49,250 nucleotides of DNA. Source: a bacterium HR28. GTDB taxonomy: Bacteria > Chloroflexota > Chloroflexia > Thermomicrobiales > Thermomicrobiaceae. Both the position numbers and the translations under genes were made by a program. Location of the stretch: contig BEIE01000006.1 of NCBI GenBank assembly GCA_002898255.1, positions 1-49,250 on the forward strand. Reading direction: 5' to 3'. The notes beneath the pieces were generated by a model. That model was not told the DNA's origin, did not search any database, and worked only from the letters and a program-made list of their open reading frames with translations. Below are positions 11,608 to 19,144 of the stretch, piece by piece; position 1 is the first letter of the stretch, and each line of letters starts with the position of its first letter.

Positions 11608-11649
11608 CGTGTGGCTCCCGCGGGCGGCGCCTTCTCTGAGGAGCGAAGA

Positions 11650-13005
11650 ATGCTGGCGCCGCTCCTTCCGCTCTTACACGCCACCGTCACATCGACCGAC
11701 CTTGTCCGAGCCTGGCACCTCGATCCGTCGGTTACGGTTTTTCTCCTGAGTCTGGCAGTTGCGTATGCGGCTGCTCGTAGGGGAGCACAGCGTGCAGGGC
11801 GCCCCGTCCCCTCACGCTGGCGTGCAATCGCCTTCCTGGCCAGTCTGGAAGTGGTCGCGGTTGCTCTCATGGGTCCCCCCGAGCACGGGAATACGGTGCG
11901 GTTTAGCGTGCACATGGTGCAGCATACGCTCCTGATGTTGGTCGCGGCACCGCTACTCGCCCTGGGGCAACCAGTCCGCACATTCCTGCGTGGCTTGCCC
12001 GCTGGGACACTACGTTGGCTCGCCCAGCAACGGGGTCTTGTGGCACTGTTCGATGTGCTCACACATCCTGTGACTGTCTTCCTCGCAGCGACTGGGCCCT
12101 TTGCACTCTGGCACTACCCTCCGCTCTACGATGCAGCTGTGCGCGTCCCCTTCCTTCATGAGGTCGAGCACGTGAGCTTTCTGGGAGGCGCGTTGCTCTT
12201 CTGGTCGGTGCTGCTGGATCCGTTCCCACGGCATCGCCGGTTTTCTCCGATGACCGCAATGCTTCTTGTGTTCGCGACGTGGATGGCGACGGATCTGGTG
12301 TGTGCGACCGTGACCCTCGCGCCACGCCCCCTCTACGGTGTGTACGCCGAGGCGGCCGCATTGTGGGGGATCGACCCGCTGGCTGACCAGCGGCTTGGTG
12401 GCGCAATTATGTGGGTGGGTGGTGGAGGACTCTATGCGGTAGTACTGCTCGCGCTCCTTCTTCGGGCAGCGCGACCCAACGCGCTGCGCCGTGTCTCGGG
12501 AGCTCCGAACCTCAGGCGGGTGTCCCTTTCGGTCGCGACTATGGCCCTGTTTTTGGTCCCGCTTGCCTTCATAGGCTTCGGAGTTATTGCACCAGTTATG
12601 GCACGGAGCGCAGATAGCATCCGCTGGCAACAAGAGGATCCGCAACGCTTCGAGCAGCGGGTCGCGACGTTCGTGGCGGCGTATCGGGTTGGGGAGCGCA
12701 ACGGACTCCCGATCGTCGCTCCATCAGGTGGGGAGGCGTATCTTGTCGGGCGAGCTGATGGCTGGTACCCGATACTGAAGCTCCGACGTGGCGCCGAGTA
12801 TCGACTGTATATCTCGGCCAGTGATGTGACGCACGGGCTTCTCGTCGATTTCGGCGAACGACGGCTGGCCGTTCGGGTGGTTCCGGGAACAGTCGCGATC
12901 ATCACTATTCGACCCGAACGAACGGGGGAATACCGGCTCCTCTGCACGGAACTCTGTGGCCCGGCGTTCCGAGAGATGACTGGTCTCTTGATTGTGAGCG
13001 AGTAA
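11650..13005 (+). CDS. CtaG-like oxidase assembly protein fused to a subunit II (CuA) domain lacking one ligand
   Basis: A 451-residue fusion. Residues about 1-290 are a seven-helix CtaG (caa3-type oxidase assembly factor) domain with the HMVQHTLLMLVAAPLLALG signature and later histidine motifs LWHYPP and LHEVEHV. A further helix (about 305-325) anchors an external cupredoxin domain (about 330-451) clearly paralogous to the subunit II encoded next (shared pattern from DPxxF to the C-terminus). CuA ligands H395, C432, E434, C436 and M443 are present, but the second histidine is Phe440. The start at 11650 has GAGGAG seven bases upstream; a GTG at 11611 is the alternative. CtaG proteins deliver copper to the CuB site; the fused domain may be a copper-transfer module. 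It leads the heme-copper cluster. Confidence 0.85.
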   Translation: MLAPLLPLLHATVTSTDLVRAWHLDPSVTVFLLSLAVAYAAARRGAQRAGRPVPSRWRAIAFLASLEVVAVALMGPPEHGNTVRFSVHMVQHTLLMLVAAPLLALGQPVRTFLRGLPAGTLRWLAQQRGLVALFDVLTHPVTVFLAATGPFALWHYPPLYDAAVRVPFLHEVEHVSFLGGALLFWSVLLDPFPRHRRFSPMTAMLLVFATWMATDLVCATVTLAPRPLYGVYAEAAALWGIDPLADQRLGGAIMWVGGGGLYAVVLLALLLRAARPNALRRVSGAPNLRRVSLSVATMALFLVPLAFIGFGVIAPVMARSADSIRWQQEDPQRFEQRVATFVAAYRVGERNGLPIVAPSGGEAYLVGRADGWYPILKLRRGAEYRLYISASDVTHGLLVDFGERRLAVRVVPGTVAIITIRPERTGEYRLLCTELCGPAFREMTGLLIVSE

Positions 13006-13641: not shown

Positions 13642-13800
13642 ATGGAAGGGCGCGAGGAACGGTCGGAGCGCGTTCCGTGGCCACAGGTGCTGTTGGATGA
13701 CATTTTCCTGATCTTGATGGCGGGGCTGGTCGTCCCGACGCTCTTCTACCTGATCTGGGGCTTGATCGATCTGGGGTTCATCCCGCTCTTTGGTCGGTAA
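13642..13800 (+). CDS. Small single-helix membrane peptide of the heme-copper enzyme (subunit IIa-like)
   Basis: A 52-residue peptide with a charged N-terminus (MEGREERSERVPWP) and one hydrophobic helix (about residues 17-47). AAGGAGG is seven bases before the ATG, a near-perfect ribosome site, and the gene is the first of a tight group: its stop is 25 bases before the subunit II start. In Thermus ba3 oxidase a 34-residue single-helix subunit IIa is likewise encoded just before subunits II and I, so the same role is inferred from order and topology. There is no obvious sequence match to claim. It is below the size cut-off of many gene finders. Confidence 0.7.
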   Translation: MEGREERSERVPWPQVLLDDIFLILMAGLVVPTLFYLIWGLIDLGFIPLFGR

Positions 13801-13825: not shown

Positions 13826-14377
13826 ATGGCGAGCCGAGTCAGCGCGCTGGCCAAACCGCGCGGTGTCTGGTGGGAGGGGTTAGGCCGTGACGAGCGGCTC
13901 TGGGTGTGGTTGACGGTCATCTGGGGCATTGCGATGTTCCTGATGATCGCGTTCGTCTGGCCGCTTATCGGGGAAGAACAAAACCGCCTTCACGCGTATC
14001 GGGTCGATCCGGCGACGTTTGCCTCACAGGCGGAGGCGTTCATCCAGCAATACCAGATTGGTCAGCGTGACGGGGTGCCAGTGGTCGCACCGCCGCCGGG
14101 TGGTGATGTGTATCTGGATGCGCGCGCGTTTGCGTGGCAACCGGTGATCCAACTGAAGCGCGGCGAGACCTACCGGTTCTTGATCAGTTCGCGCGATGTA
14201 CAACATGGCTTCTCGCTGGTGATGCCGCCACACAGCATCAACGTGCAGGTTTTGCCGGGGTATGTCACGGTGCTGGAACTGACGCCCGAAAAGACGGGAG
14301 AGTTTCCGCTGATCTGCAATGAGTACTGCGGTCTGGGCCACCATCTCATGATCGGCCGGATCATCGTGACGGAGTGA
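13826..14377 (+). CDS. Heme-copper enzyme subunit II with intact CuA site (ba3-type)
   Basis: A 183-residue membrane-anchored cupredoxin. One N-terminal helix (about 25-48) is followed by the external domain that accepts electrons from cytochrome c or a blue copper protein. All CuA ligands are present: H127 (DVQHGF), C164, E166, C168, H172 and M175 in CNEYCGLGHHLM. The short length and single helix are typical of B-family (ba3) subunit II. The start at 13826 has GGGAGGTG directly upstream; an earlier ATG at 13790 would overlap the small peptide gene. It is followed nine bases later by subunit I. Confidence 0.93.
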   Translation: MASRVSALAKPRGVWWEGLGRDERLWVWLTVIWGIAMFLMIAFVWPLIGEEQNRLHAYRVDPATFASQAEAFIQQYQIGQRDGVPVVAPPPGGDVYLDARAFAWQPVIQLKRGETYRFLISSRDVQHGFSLVMPPHSINVQVLPGYVTVLELTPEKTGEFPLICNEYCGLGHHLMIGRIIVTE

Positions 14378-14386
14378 GGTGGGACG

Positions 14387-16120
14387 ATGGCGACAGCAGC
14401 AACGATGCGACGGTGCGAGATAACGGGTCTCTCGGTTGATCGCTCGGCCGAGCGGCTCATCATGCTGAACGCAGTGACGGCGGTGGTCTATCTCACGATT
14501 GGGGGTGTACTGGCCTTGCTTATCGCCTTGACGCGGTGGCAGGCTGTGCATCTCCTCGCCCCGCAACGGTTCTACGAGTTCGTGTCAACTCATGGAATGG
14601 TGATGTTAATCTTCTGGATCCTCTTCTTCGAGGTTGCGGGATTGATCTTTGCGAGTACCGTTCTCCTAAGTACACGAATGGTCATTCCGTGGCTGAGCTG
14701 GATTGCCTACCTGATGATGCTCGGGGGCTCGGTCATCGCCACCGTGCTGATGCTGAGCGGCCAGGCGACGGTGATGTTCACCTCTTACCCGCCACTCCGG
14801 GCTGAGACGCCATGGTATTACGCGGCGGTGCTCGTTTTCGCGGTGGGAGCTATCCTGGCGGTCGTGCACTTCTTTGTCAACATCGTTGCGGCACGCTTGC
14901 GCGGCGATGTTGGGAGCTTGCCGCTCTTTACGTTCGCGTTGATGGGGGCGGCGATCATCGCACTCTGGTCGTTGCTCTCCGGAGCGCTCGCCTTGTTCCC
15001 GGTGTTCCTCTGGGCGCTTGGAGTCATTCCGGAAGTCGATCCAGGGATCTACCGATTGCTGTACTGGGGGCTCGGCCATGGCGCGCAGCAGGTGAATCTT
15101 GCCGCTATGGTCGGCGTGTGGTACGGGCTGGCGAGCCTGACGACCGGTGCGCGGCCATTGAACGAGGGGTTGAGCCGGATCGCTATTGTGCTTTACGTGC
15201 TCTTCATCAACATGGGAGCGATGCACCACCTGCTGGTCGATCCGGGTTTGGGAACCTGGGTGAAGAACGTAAATGCGAGCTACTTCATGTACGCGGCGGT
15301 AATGGGCAGTCTCATTCATGCTTTCAGTATTCCAGCCTCGATGGAGCTGGCCCTGCGCGAACGAGGGTATCGCCGTGGGCTTTTCGAGTGGCTACGCCGA
15401 GCGCCGTGGGGTGAGCCGGGGTTTGCGGCGCTTGTCGTGAGCATGATTCTCTTTGGGCTCTTAGGCGGGATCAGCGGAGTGATCATTGGCGGGCCGCAAG
15501 TGAACATGATTTCGCATAATACGTTACTTGTTCCAGCTCACTTCCATATGACGGTCGTCGCGGGGACAACGTTGGCGTTCATGGGGATTGCGTACTACCT
15601 TGTTCCACTCATCTTCCAGCGTCAGCTCCTGTTCCGGCGGCTGGCGCAGTGGCAGCCATACGTCTATGGCCTCGGCATGCTGATCTTTGGCATCGGGATG
15701 GGATTGGCCGGGCATTGGGGCGTTCCGCGGCGGCACTGGGACATCACCTTCTCGACTGCACCGGTGCTTGGTGTGAACTTGCAAGAACTGCGGCCCGAGA
15801 TTGCGGTGTTCCTCGCGATGATGGGTATCGGGGGGATCATTGCGGTTATCGGCGGGGCGATGTTCGTCGCGGTCGCAGTGGCGACCGTCTTTGTGGGACA
15901 GCGTACAGCGCGGCCAGCGGTGGGCCGAATCGTGCCTGAGGCGTTCAGCCCCTATCCAGCCATTGCCGGTGGGAGTGGAGAACCGGCCGCTGCGGCTGCA
16001 CACCGAACCTTCGAGGTGCCTGGCACGTTGGTCATCTCGGTCGTGTTCTTGATCCTCTTTATCTTCTTGTATGGTTTCTCGTGGTTTGAGTTGAGCCGCG
16101 TGCCGTGGAAGATCGGGTGA
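14387..16120 (+). CDS. B-family heme-copper oxidoreductase subunit I lacking the active-site tyrosine
   Basis: A 577-residue, about 13-helix catalytic subunit, similar along its length to the Thermus ba3 type (MHHLLVDPG, NTLLVPAHFHMTV, LAGHWGVPRR). Metal ligands: H69 and H387 for the low-spin heme, H385 for the high-spin heme, H231, H280 and H281 for CuB. Oxidases have H-x3-Y in helix VI with a cross-linked Tyr; here the motif is GHGAQQ, so the Tyr position is Gln235. The cbb3 alternative position, six residues before the HH pair, is Ile274. In cNOR the H+4 residue is Glu. The enzyme may therefore reduce NO rather than O2, an inference. CuA-bearing subunit II lies upstream, heme A genes downstream. 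Confidence 0.88.
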   Translation: MATAATMRRCEITGLSVDRSAERLIMLNAVTAVVYLTIGGVLALLIALTRWQAVHLLAPQRFYEFVSTHGMVMLIFWILFFEVAGLIFASTVLLSTRMVIPWLSWIAYLMMLGGSVIATVLMLSGQATVMFTSYPPLRAETPWYYAAVLVFAVGAILAVVHFFVNIVAARLRGDVGSLPLFTFALMGAAIIALWSLLSGALALFPVFLWALGVIPEVDPGIYRLLYWGLGHGAQQVNLAAMVGVWYGLASLTTGARPLNEGLSRIAIVLYVLFINMGAMHHLLVDPGLGTWVKNVNASYFMYAAVMGSLIHAFSIPASMELALRERGYRRGLFEWLRRAPWGEPGFAALVVSMILFGLLGGISGVIIGGPQVNMISHNTLLVPAHFHMTVVAGTTLAFMGIAYYLVPLIFQRQLLFRRLAQWQPYVYGLGMLIFGIGMGLAGHWGVPRRHWDITFSTAPVLGVNLQELRPEIAVFLAMMGIGGIIAVIGGAMFVAVAVATVFVGQRTARPAVGRIVPEAFSPYPAIAGGSGEPAAAAAHRTFEVPGTLVISVVFLILFIFLYGFSWFELSRVPWKIG

Positions 16121-16218
16121 TCCCTGACACCACTCGGCGTCTTCATCGGTTACGCTGGTTGTAGTAGATTAGCGGCGAGCGGCGTGTGTCGGGTGGCAAC
16201 GCATTCTCGGGGGCAGCG

Positions 16219-18039
16219 ATGCACAGCGCAGTGGGAGAGGGGAGCCAGCGAATACGTTGGCTCACGCTGGCGGTGGTGATCGCGGGGTATCTCTTGATCG
16301 TCGTGGGTGGGACGGTACGAGTTACCGGGGCCGGGCTCGGTTGTGGGCCAGAGTGGCCACTGTGCAATGGGCAAGTGATCCCCGGATGGGATCTCCTCGC
16401 GTGGATTGAGTATGTGCACCGGCTGATTGCACTCGGAGTAATCCTCCTCACCGGAGCAGTCGCGGTAGCCGGCTGGCGCCTCCGAACCGCAGACCCATGG
16501 CTACGGCGGTTGCCGCTCGTCGCGGCGGGGCTGGTGGTCATCCAGGCGCTGCTAGGCGCGGTGACTGTCTGGACGCATCTGGAAGCGGCGATTGTCGCAC
16601 TGCATCTGGGCGTGGCGTTGAGCTACCTCGCGGTCGCGGTCATTTTGGCTTTCCGAGCGTGGTGGCCGGAGCTCGCTCGCCGCGCGGTGCGTTCGCCAGT
16701 CCGATCGTGGATCTTCACCTCGATCGGTGCTGTCTTCGTGCTGATGCTTAGCGGAGCCTATACCGCCAAGCGGGGTGCTGGCTTCGCGTGCCCGGAATGG
16801 CCTTTCTGTGGTGGCTTTTGGTTTCCGACCGGTTGGACCAACGTGGATGTGCATCTGACACATCGTCTGATCGCACTGGTCGCTGTCTTGCTGGTCCTGG
16901 TACTGGCGTGGCAAGTGCGCCGTCTGCGCAGTGATGCGCCGTGGGTGGTCGGTCTCTCGCTGGCTGCTGCCGCACTGATGGTGGCGCAAGTCTTTGTGGG
17001 GGCAGCAAACATCTGGTTCCGGCTGCATCCGGCGGTGAGTGTGGCGCACCTGGCAGTAGCGACGGTCATCTGGGTGTTCTTAGTGTTGACAGCGCTGGTC
17101 GATCGAGCGACACCACTGGCGGAAGTGGTACCTGCCACGACGCGAACAGCACGTGGCGTACAGTCGGGTCGCCCCCTTAGTGAAGTCCTGCGTGACTACC
17201 TAGTCCTCACCAAGCCAGGTGTCATGGTCTTACTCTTGCTCACCACGCTCTGCGCCATGCTGGTCGCGGCACAGGGGGTGCCAGCCCTCGGCACACTGTT
17301 CTGGGCGCTCATCGGCGGAGCGCTTGCCTCGGGCGGAGCTGGGGCGATCAATCACTATGTCGATCGAGACATCGATGCGATCATGACGCGGACGCGGGGG
17401 CGACCGTTGCCAAGTGGTCGGCTGGCCCCGGAGTTCGCGCTGATCTTTGGTGTGACCCTGAGCGTCCTGGCTGTCTATGTCCTCACCGCTTTCGTGAATC
17501 CGCTGGCGGCGCTCCTCTCACTGGCAGGTAATCTGTTCTATGTCTTTGTCTACTCCGTCTGGCTCAAGCGGAGCACACCGCAGAACATTGTGATTGGCGG
17601 AGCAGCCGGAGCCGTACCGCCGCTGGTCGGCTGGGCAGCGGTGACGGGTCAGGTAGCGCTACCGGCCATCTTGATGTTTCTGCTGGTGTTTGCCTGGACA
17701 CCGCCGCACTTCTGGGCGCTGGCGCTCTACAAGCGCGGTGACTATGCCGCAGCGGGGGTGCCGATGTTGCCAGCAGTTCGTGGCGAAGAAGAGACGCGGC
17801 GGCAGATTCTCTTCTACACAATTGCCATGGTGCTCACAAGCCTGCTCTTCTATCCGCTTGGCGCCCTCGGGCTTCCCTATCTCATCGCTGCAACGGTACT
17901 GGGAGCGCGTTTCCTCTGGCTCGTCGCGCGACTCTACCGCGAACGGAGTGATGCGCTTGCAAAGCGAGTCTTCCTCTACTCGATGCAGTATCTTGGGTTG
18001 CTCTTCGCAGCGATGGTTGTGGATGCTGTCCTGTTCTAA
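16219..18039 (+). CDS. Fused heme A synthase (CtaA) - protoheme IX farnesyltransferase (CtaB)
   Basis: A 606-residue integral membrane fusion covering both heme A steps: farnesylation of heme B to heme O, then oxidation to heme A. Residues about 1-300 are CtaA, an eight-helix duplicated bundle with EYVHR, LHLGVAL, THRLIAL and VAHLAVA heme histidines and two loop Cys pairs (CGPEWPLC and CPEWPFC). Residues about 325-606 are the UbiA-type prenyltransferase CtaB: N378-x3-D382-x3-D386 (NHYVDRDID), RGRPLPSG and VYSVWLKRSTPQNIVIGG. The usual genes are separate. The start at 16219 is preferred over a GTG at 16186. It lies 98 bases after subunit I, supporting heme A or its derivative in that enzyme. 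Confidence 0.93.
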   Translation: MHSAVGEGSQRIRWLTLAVVIAGYLLIVVGGTVRVTGAGLGCGPEWPLCNGQVIPGWDLLAWIEYVHRLIALGVILLTGAVAVAGWRLRTADPWLRRLPLVAAGLVVIQALLGAVTVWTHLEAAIVALHLGVALSYLAVAVILAFRAWWPELARRAVRSPVRSWIFTSIGAVFVLMLSGAYTAKRGAGFACPEWPFCGGFWFPTGWTNVDVHLTHRLIALVAVLLVLVLAWQVRRLRSDAPWVVGLSLAAAALMVAQVFVGAANIWFRLHPAVSVAHLAVATVIWVFLVLTALVDRATPLAEVVPATTRTARGVQSGRPLSEVLRDYLVLTKPGVMVLLLLTTLCAMLVAAQGVPALGTLFWALIGGALASGGAGAINHYVDRDIDAIMTRTRGRPLPSGRLAPEFALIFGVTLSVLAVYVLTAFVNPLAALLSLAGNLFYVFVYSVWLKRSTPQNIVIGGAAGAVPPLVGWAAVTGQVALPAILMFLLVFAWTPPHFWALALYKRGDYAAAGVPMLPAVRGEEETRRQILFYTIAMVLTSLLFYPLGALGLPYLIAATVLGARFLWLVARLYRERSDALAKRVFLYSMQYLGLLFAAMVVDAVLF

Positions 18040-18058
18040 GGGGTGAAGGGCCTTGCGG

Positions 18059-19144
18059 ATGGAGCGGCGCTGGCAGTTTGCTGAACGCCCACTCCTGGTC
18101 TACTGGGAGCTGACACGGGCGTGCCAGTTGGCGTGTCGTCATTGCCGAGCGGAAGCCGTTCCCTGGCGCCACCCGCGCGAGCTCTCAACTGACGAAGGCT
18201 TGCAGCTTCTCGATGCGCTGCGTGGTTTTGGTTCTCCGTTGCCGCATTTGGTGCTGACAGGCGGTGATCCGTTGGCTCGTCCGGATCTCTTCGAGCTGAT
18301 CGCCGCAGCTCGCGAGCGTGGCTTTGCAGTCTCGATCACGCCGAGCGGGACATATGCACTGACACCTGATGTGCTCAGGCGTCTCCGTGAGGCAGGGATC
18401 ACAACGTTGGCATTGAGCCTGGATGGATCGACAGCAGAGCGACATGATTCGCTGCGTGGTGTGGAGGGCAGTTTCGTCTGGACACTCACTGCCGCGCGCA
18501 CAGCACGTGAGCTCGGCCTCCCCCTTCAGGTGAACACGCTCGTCTGTGCCGAGACCCGTGATGATCTGCCCGCCATGCTCGAGTTTGTTTGGGAGCTCGG
18601 AGTCGAGCGTTGGAGTCTCTTCTTCCTTGTGCCAGTAGGCCGCGGGCGTCTGCTGTCGCCGCTCACGCCGGACGAAGCGGAAGCTGTGCTCACCTGGCTC
18701 GCTGAGGTCACTGAGCAGGTTCCGTTCGCCATCAAGACAACCGAGGCGCCATTTTACCGGCGGGTGGTGGCGCAGCGACGGGCGCGGCTGGGTGTATCGT
18801 CGTCGCCGATCTCGGTGCGGCGTGGCTATGGCGTCCGGGACGGGAATGGGATTCTGTTTATCTCGCACACCGGCGAAGTGTATCCGGCGGGCTTTCTTCC
18901 GTTGCCGGTCGGCGATGTGCGTACGAATGATGTGGTTCACCTCTACCGGAGTCATCCCCTCTTCATCGCATTGCGTGACCCGGATCAGTTCCGCGGGAAG
19001 TGTGGACGCTGTGAGTTCCGCTTCGTGTGCGGTGGCTCACGAGCCCGTGCATGGGCGGCGACAGGAGACCCCTTAGAGAGTGATCCACTTTGCCCGTACC
19101 AACCTGGCGCACGGACGCGTGAAGCGACCGTCTTCGTCGACTGA
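18059..19144 (+). CDS. Radical SAM/SPASM protein (heme-pathway or peptide-maturation type)
   Basis: A 361-residue radical SAM enzyme. The CxxxCxxC cluster motif is CQLACRHC near residue 25, followed by TGGDPL and a typical partial barrel. The C-terminus has a SPASM-like auxiliary cluster region, CGRCEFRFVCGGSRARAW with a further CPY. The pattern is closest to AhbC/AhbD/NirJ-like proteins, which act on heme side chains, and to the related family I know as BA_1875-type; I cannot separate these by eye. The ATG at 18059 has AAGGG upstream and lies 20 bases after the CtaA-CtaB gene, so it is likely co-transcribed and possibly concerned with heme modification. Confidence 0.82.
   Translation: MERRWQFAERPLLVYWELTRACQLACRHCRAEAVPWRHPRELSTDEGLQLLDALRGFGSPLPHLVLTGGDPLARPDLFELIAAARERGFAVSITPSGTYALTPDVLRRLREAGITTLALSLDGSTAERHDSLRGVEGSFVWTLTAARTARELGLPLQVNTLVCAETRDDLPAMLEFVWELGVERWSLFFLVPVGRGRLLSPLTPDEAEAVLTWLAEVTEQVPFAIKTTEAPFYRRVVAQRRARLGVSSSPISVRRGYGVRDGNGILFISHTGEVYPAGFLPLPVGDVRTNDVVHLYRSHPLFIALRDPDQFRGKCGRCEFRFVCGGSRARAWAATGDPLESDPLCPYQPGARTREATVFVD

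Follow-up and report, generated by a model that had tools for sequence, protein, structure and literature searches.

A heme–copper enzyme with glutamine at the active-site tyrosine position in Thermomicrobium, a probable eNOR-type nitric oxide reductase

The window analysed here, a 49 250-nucleotide stretch of DNA, encodes a heme–copper catalytic subunit (subunit I) with glutamine at the position of the cross-linked tyrosine, which raises the question of whether the enzyme reduces oxygen or nitric oxide and, in the latter case, whether it is a new type of nitric oxide reductase (NOR), as the preliminary description proposed. The gene (14387–16120, + strand) is an ORF of 577 amino acids plus stop that matches COX1 with 205.4 bits, and its residues, its clade and its ba3-like predicted fold argue for the eNOR type. 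The six metal ligands are all histidine by position (H69, H231, H280, H281, H385 and H387). The helix VI active-site stretch (WGLGHGAQQVNL; 15065–15100, + strand) contains the CuB ligand H231 and reads GHGAQQVN, so that the residue at H+4 is Gln235 (codon 15089–15091) and the Tyr that is the hallmark of B-family (ba3) enzymes is absent. C-family (cbb3-type) enzymes carry their Tyr in helix VII instead, at the sixth residue ahead of the HH pair; subunit I also lacks this residue and has Ile274 in its place. These positions agree with the preliminary description, in which the six histidines, the GHGAQQ motif with Gln235 and Ile274 had all been noted.

The eNOR family was reportedly described by Hemp and Gennis in 2008 and by Murali et al. 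in 2024. Members are reported from Ardenticatena, Anaerolineales and Halobacteria, and the characterized enzyme is that of Rhodothermus marinus. The residue at the position in question is Tyr in O2 reductases, Glu in cNOR and qNOR, Asn in sNOR and CuANOR, Asp in gNOR and Gln in eNOR (PMC8756737, Table A4), and it is by this Gln that eNOR is diagnosed in the literature (PMC8756737). The active-site position of subunit I holds neither the Glu of cNOR and qNOR, nor the Asn of sNOR and CuANOR/bNOR, nor the Asp of gNOR. Because a Gln at this site is diagnostic of eNOR, the enzyme of this locus belongs to a kind of NOR already described and is not a new type; the proposal of a 'new-type' NO reductase thus fails in its first part, and what the evidence supports best is a NOR that has a CuA subunit. 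eNOR ranks among the NORs characterized biochemically (PMC11388526), is known already from Chloroflexi (PMC4653789) and is represented by sequences or models in current reference sets (PMC12569097, PMC10359470). It has one predicted proton channel (PMC8756737, Table A4) and a gene order in which the cupredoxin subunit II lies directly upstream of subunit I (PMC8756737).

The source genome (3.12 Mb) is that of a heat-loving bacterium which, judging from its nearest relatives, belongs to the genus Thermomicrobium. The closest relative of subunit I is found in Thermomicrobium sp. CFH 73360 (97% identity), and the copy in T. roseum DSM 5159, which is carried on a megaplasmid, is about 90% identical. 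Gln is present at H+4, within the motif GHxxQQ[VI]N, in all of the approximately 50 relatives of at least 43% identity (from Chloroflexota, Thermus and one alphaproteobacterium), so that Gln235 is not the product of chance or of a sequencing error. The B-family relatives inspected, which are about 30% identical, have Tyr at H+4; in the aligned set Gln occurs in 28/28 clade members versus Tyr in 16/16 B-family sequences. Gln is fixed in a clade that spans Chloroflexota, Thermus plasmids and a Defluviimonas plasmid. The haloarchaeal plasmid matches inspected carry Tyr and were rejected as eNOR. Two T. thermophilus plasmid copies (L044:9983–11665 and L079:7983–9662) read HFK rather than HFH in helix X, with Lys at the expected low-spin heme His. 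An Azospirillum plasmid protein resembling heme–copper enzymes (L077:2851–4539; 25% identity) keeps Tyr at H+4 and has YH for HH and GYFH for GHFH, so that one CuB ligand and one heme ligand differ.

A tree was built from Gln, A-family, B-family (including T. thermophilus ba3), Asn-type and Glu-type sequences, with R. marinus eNOR not included. In it all Gln sequences come together (bootstrap/SH-aLRT 100/100) next to the Tyr-containing B-family group (99/99), apart from the Tyr-type B-family, A-family and Asn-type sequences, with subunit I grouped with Anaerolineales and Thermus relatives; the deeper branching order is unsure because some outer branches are long. Alignment and tree, the check suggested in the preliminary description, thus separate the Gln clade from Tyr-type B-family enzymes, and the eNOR membership considered there as a possibility is backed by alignment, tree, operon and genome context. 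On these grounds the enzyme is very probably an eNOR, either descended from the B-family or its sister. The absence of the R. marinus enzyme from the tree favours the idea of a heme–copper NOR outside the eNOR family that gained Gln independently; this is scarcely credible, however, given that the diagnostic Gln and the gene order described for eNOR are both present and that subunit I groups with Anaerolineales and Thermus, lineages named in the eNOR literature (PMC8756737, PMC4653789).

The clade is marked off from the B-family by E82, Q234, Q235 and Y299, and in most members also by Y270 and Y302. Asn237 corresponds to Trp in the B-family, Val242 to Tyr and His311 to Thr, and in the alignment His311 falls on the Lys of the K-channel motif of A-family enzymes. 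Y246 and S308, which we take to be the counterparts of ba3 proton-channel residues, are kept; together with H311 they are invariant across the 28-member alignment, suggesting all three as candidate channel residues. An AlphaFold2 model of subunit I (mean pLDDT 85, pTM 0.87), computed from an alignment with eight rows from plasmid records left out, matches the ba3 fold with a Z score of about 37 over about 490 residues. A search for a solved eNOR in the PDB returned ba3 oxidases as the best matches.

Subunit I is the third gene of an operon that encodes, in order, a 52-residue protein, a CuA subunit II, subunit I, a CtaA–CtaB fusion and a TIGR04053 radical SAM protein. The first gene (13642–13800, + strand) translates into a membrane protein with one helix, a candidate small third subunit. 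In Thermomicrobiaceae and at several other loci, clear matches to it lie immediately in front of subunit II; those in Thermus and Anaerolineales are weak, and the gene in the same place is annotated as hypothetical in T. roseum, Thermus and Defluviimonas. Subunit II (13826–14377, + strand; COX2 domain), directly upstream of subunit I, consists of one membrane helix and a CuA cupredoxin with a full set of ligands (the His in DVQHGFS, followed by CNEYCGLGHHLM), as had been described from the first reading, and the motif is also intact at the other Gln-clade loci inspected. Downstream (16186–18039, + strand) lies a protein of 617 residues in which Pfam recognizes heme A synthase (CtaA/COX15) fused to heme O synthase (CtaB/COX10), the NCBIfam heme o synthase match being above the cut-off. 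A heme-synthase gene, fused or single, adjoins the enzyme at many other loci; since a second, separate CtaA exists elsewhere in the source genome, the fusion may serve the eNOR-type enzyme. The last gene (18053–19144, + strand) encodes a radical SAM/SPASM protein (NCBIfam TIGR04053, 478.6 bits, above the cut-off) that resembles heme-modifying radical SAM enzymes and has an uncertain link to the heme–copper enzyme; in Thermus, too, plasmid-borne copies of the enzyme have a TIGR04053 gene nearby. In Thermomicrobium sp. CFH 73360 (L003:11654–12660) this gene is split over several frames, whereas it is intact at 18053–19144.

Upstream of the operon (11611–13005, + strand) a CtaG protein, a caa3-type assembly factor (Pfam Caa3_CtaG, 196.6 bits), is fused to a cupredoxin domain (COX2) that resembles subunit II but carries Phe in place of one CuA His (CTELCGPAFREM). 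Among the loci compared, the fusion is confined to Thermomicrobium, T. roseum included, while other Thermomicrobiaceae have CtaG without the cupredoxin domain. It is probably a copper-assembly helper. In two distant Chloroflexota genomes (L113:7438–8931 and L114:978–2420) the neighbour of the enzyme is a heme–copper-like protein without the CuB HH pair.

The source genome encodes narG (1512 bits, cut-off 1084), nirK (352.8 bits, cut-off 296.3) with its copper-ligand motifs, and a clade II nosZ (928 bits, cut-off 625). The narG gene is an intact ORF of 1230 residues, a reported TGA being its natural stop rather than a break, and NirS was rejected as a source of NO, the genome yielding no match to it. 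Across 400 Chloroflexota genomes, nir or nos occurs in 25/28 genomes with the Gln enzyme versus 53/372 without it (p about 1e-16); counted by genus, nirK or nirS is present in 11 of the 15 with the enzyme and in 29 of the 209 without it (p about 1e-6). These p-values are guides, because the best few candidates per genome were scored and the genomes are related. As a control, 7/32 genomes in which a Tyr-type B oxidase and no eNOR was detected have nir or nos.

Within this association the enzyme could still be an eNOR-kind NOR that mainly detoxifies NO in (micro)oxic cells instead of serving denitrifying respiration. Three other Thermomicrobium genomes carry the enzyme and NosZ without NirK above the cut-off, a pattern compatible with NO scavenging or detoxification; in genome G390 NirK is present and the enzyme is absent, and both patterns count against the eNOR reading as well. 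The Thermus plasmid copies lie near a nitrite reductase and beside genes for an Rrf2 regulator and DUF542, two kinds of gene often tied to NO stress. However, the source genome has narG, nirK and nosZ, 11 of the 28 carriers also have NosZ, and NirK adjoins the enzyme in genome G088, is on the same contig in G047 and lies beside eNOR in Ardenticatena (PMC4653789). A mainly detoxifying role is thus possible but rather doubtful.

The gene associations also bear on whether the enzyme could instead reduce oxygen with high affinity, either with no cross-linked Tyr or by means of another Tyr, for example Y270 in helix VII. Its fold and nearest solved relatives are those of ba3 oxidase, standard annotation names it cytochrome c oxidase, and Y270, which by sequence lies four residues (one helical turn) ahead of the C-family Tyr position, is Tyr in 26/28 clade members. 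Nevertheless, Y270 is missing from two members, the source genome already encodes Tyr-type A- and B-family oxidases, the association with nir and nos is far stronger than that of Tyr-type B oxidases, and eNOR is reported to reduce NO (PMC11388526), so that oxygen reduction as its function appears most unlikely.

For the preferred eNOR reading, electrons would be received by CuA in subunit II, move on to the low-spin heme (ligands H69 and H387) and from there reach the high-spin heme (ligand H385) and CuB (H231, H280 and H281), where two NO molecules would be converted to N2O and water. Gln235 occupies the place of the cross-linked Tyr, which helps to split O2 in oxygen reductases, and its presence there disfavours O2 reduction by the usual route. 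The enzyme probably receives its heme and copper with the help of the fused heme O/heme A synthase and CtaG. With narG, nirK and clade II nosZ also encoded in the genome, conversion of NO to N2O is plausible, and the enzyme probably bridges NirK (nitrite to NO) and NosZ (N2O to N2) in the cell. We infer NO turnover, the electron donor, the heme type and any proton coupling from these features, and energy conservation by the enzyme is a prediction. More tentatively, the enzyme might be an electrogenic NOR with a proton path through H311 and a heme-synthase fusion of its own, served in Thermomicrobium by CtaG as a private CuA chaperone; this view draws on the location of H311 at the A-family K-channel Lys and on the degenerate copy of subunit II borne by CtaG.

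Thermomicrobium genomes contain other unusual heme–copper proteins. A further subunit I of 489 residues in the source genome (L100:2558–4024; C1:1056057–1057523, minus strand) reads AHNLMEAMG, with Glu at H+4, and TAHTMTI, apparently with Met for the second low-spin heme His, and adjoins an intact CuA subunit II. It was found in only two of 201 Chloroflexota genomes searched, both Thermomicrobium, and forms a very long branch; it possibly represents an undescribed heme–copper family. This protein could also be able to reduce NO, which counts against the eNOR reading. T. roseum and a second Thermomicrobium genome encode an Asn-type (sNOR-like) enzyme (L125:3968–5452 and L103:2398–3879), which in T. 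roseum has a formate/nitrite transporter gene as its neighbour; Asn-type and Gln sequences form separate clades in the tree.

Because standard annotation names eNORs 'cytochrome c oxidase', NO-reducing, N2O-forming microbes are undercounted. If only cNOR and qNOR are counted, the source genome is scored as having no NO reductase, yet it encodes narG, nirK, eNOR and clade II nosZ. The clade-wide pattern of Q234, Q235, N237, H311 and E82 offers targets for comparing NO chemistry and proton uptake with those of O2 reductases.

Compared with known heme–copper enzymes, the present one shares with cNOR and qNOR the proposed reduction of NO to N2O; it differs in having Gln rather than Glu at H+4 and in pairing with a CuA subunit where those have one with heme c. 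The sNOR of Ruegeria pomeroyi, also present in T. roseum, is likewise a candidate heme–copper NO reductase with a cupredoxin subunit, but has Asn at H+4 and falls in a distant clade. T. thermophilus ba3 resembles the enzyme in fold, metal ligands, the CuA subunit II, Y246 and S308, whereas subunit I has Gln for Tyr at H+4, Asn237 for Trp, Val242 for Tyr and His311 for Thr, and belongs to a separate clade. The likeness to eNOR extends to Gln in place of the active-site Tyr, the six metal-binding histidines, the subunit II gene directly upstream and the company of nirK and nosZ, and no feature was found in residues, gene order or gene company that sets the enzyme apart from eNOR; the Thermomicrobium additions are the CtaA–CtaB fusion and, beside the operon, CtaG fused to a degenerate CuA domain.
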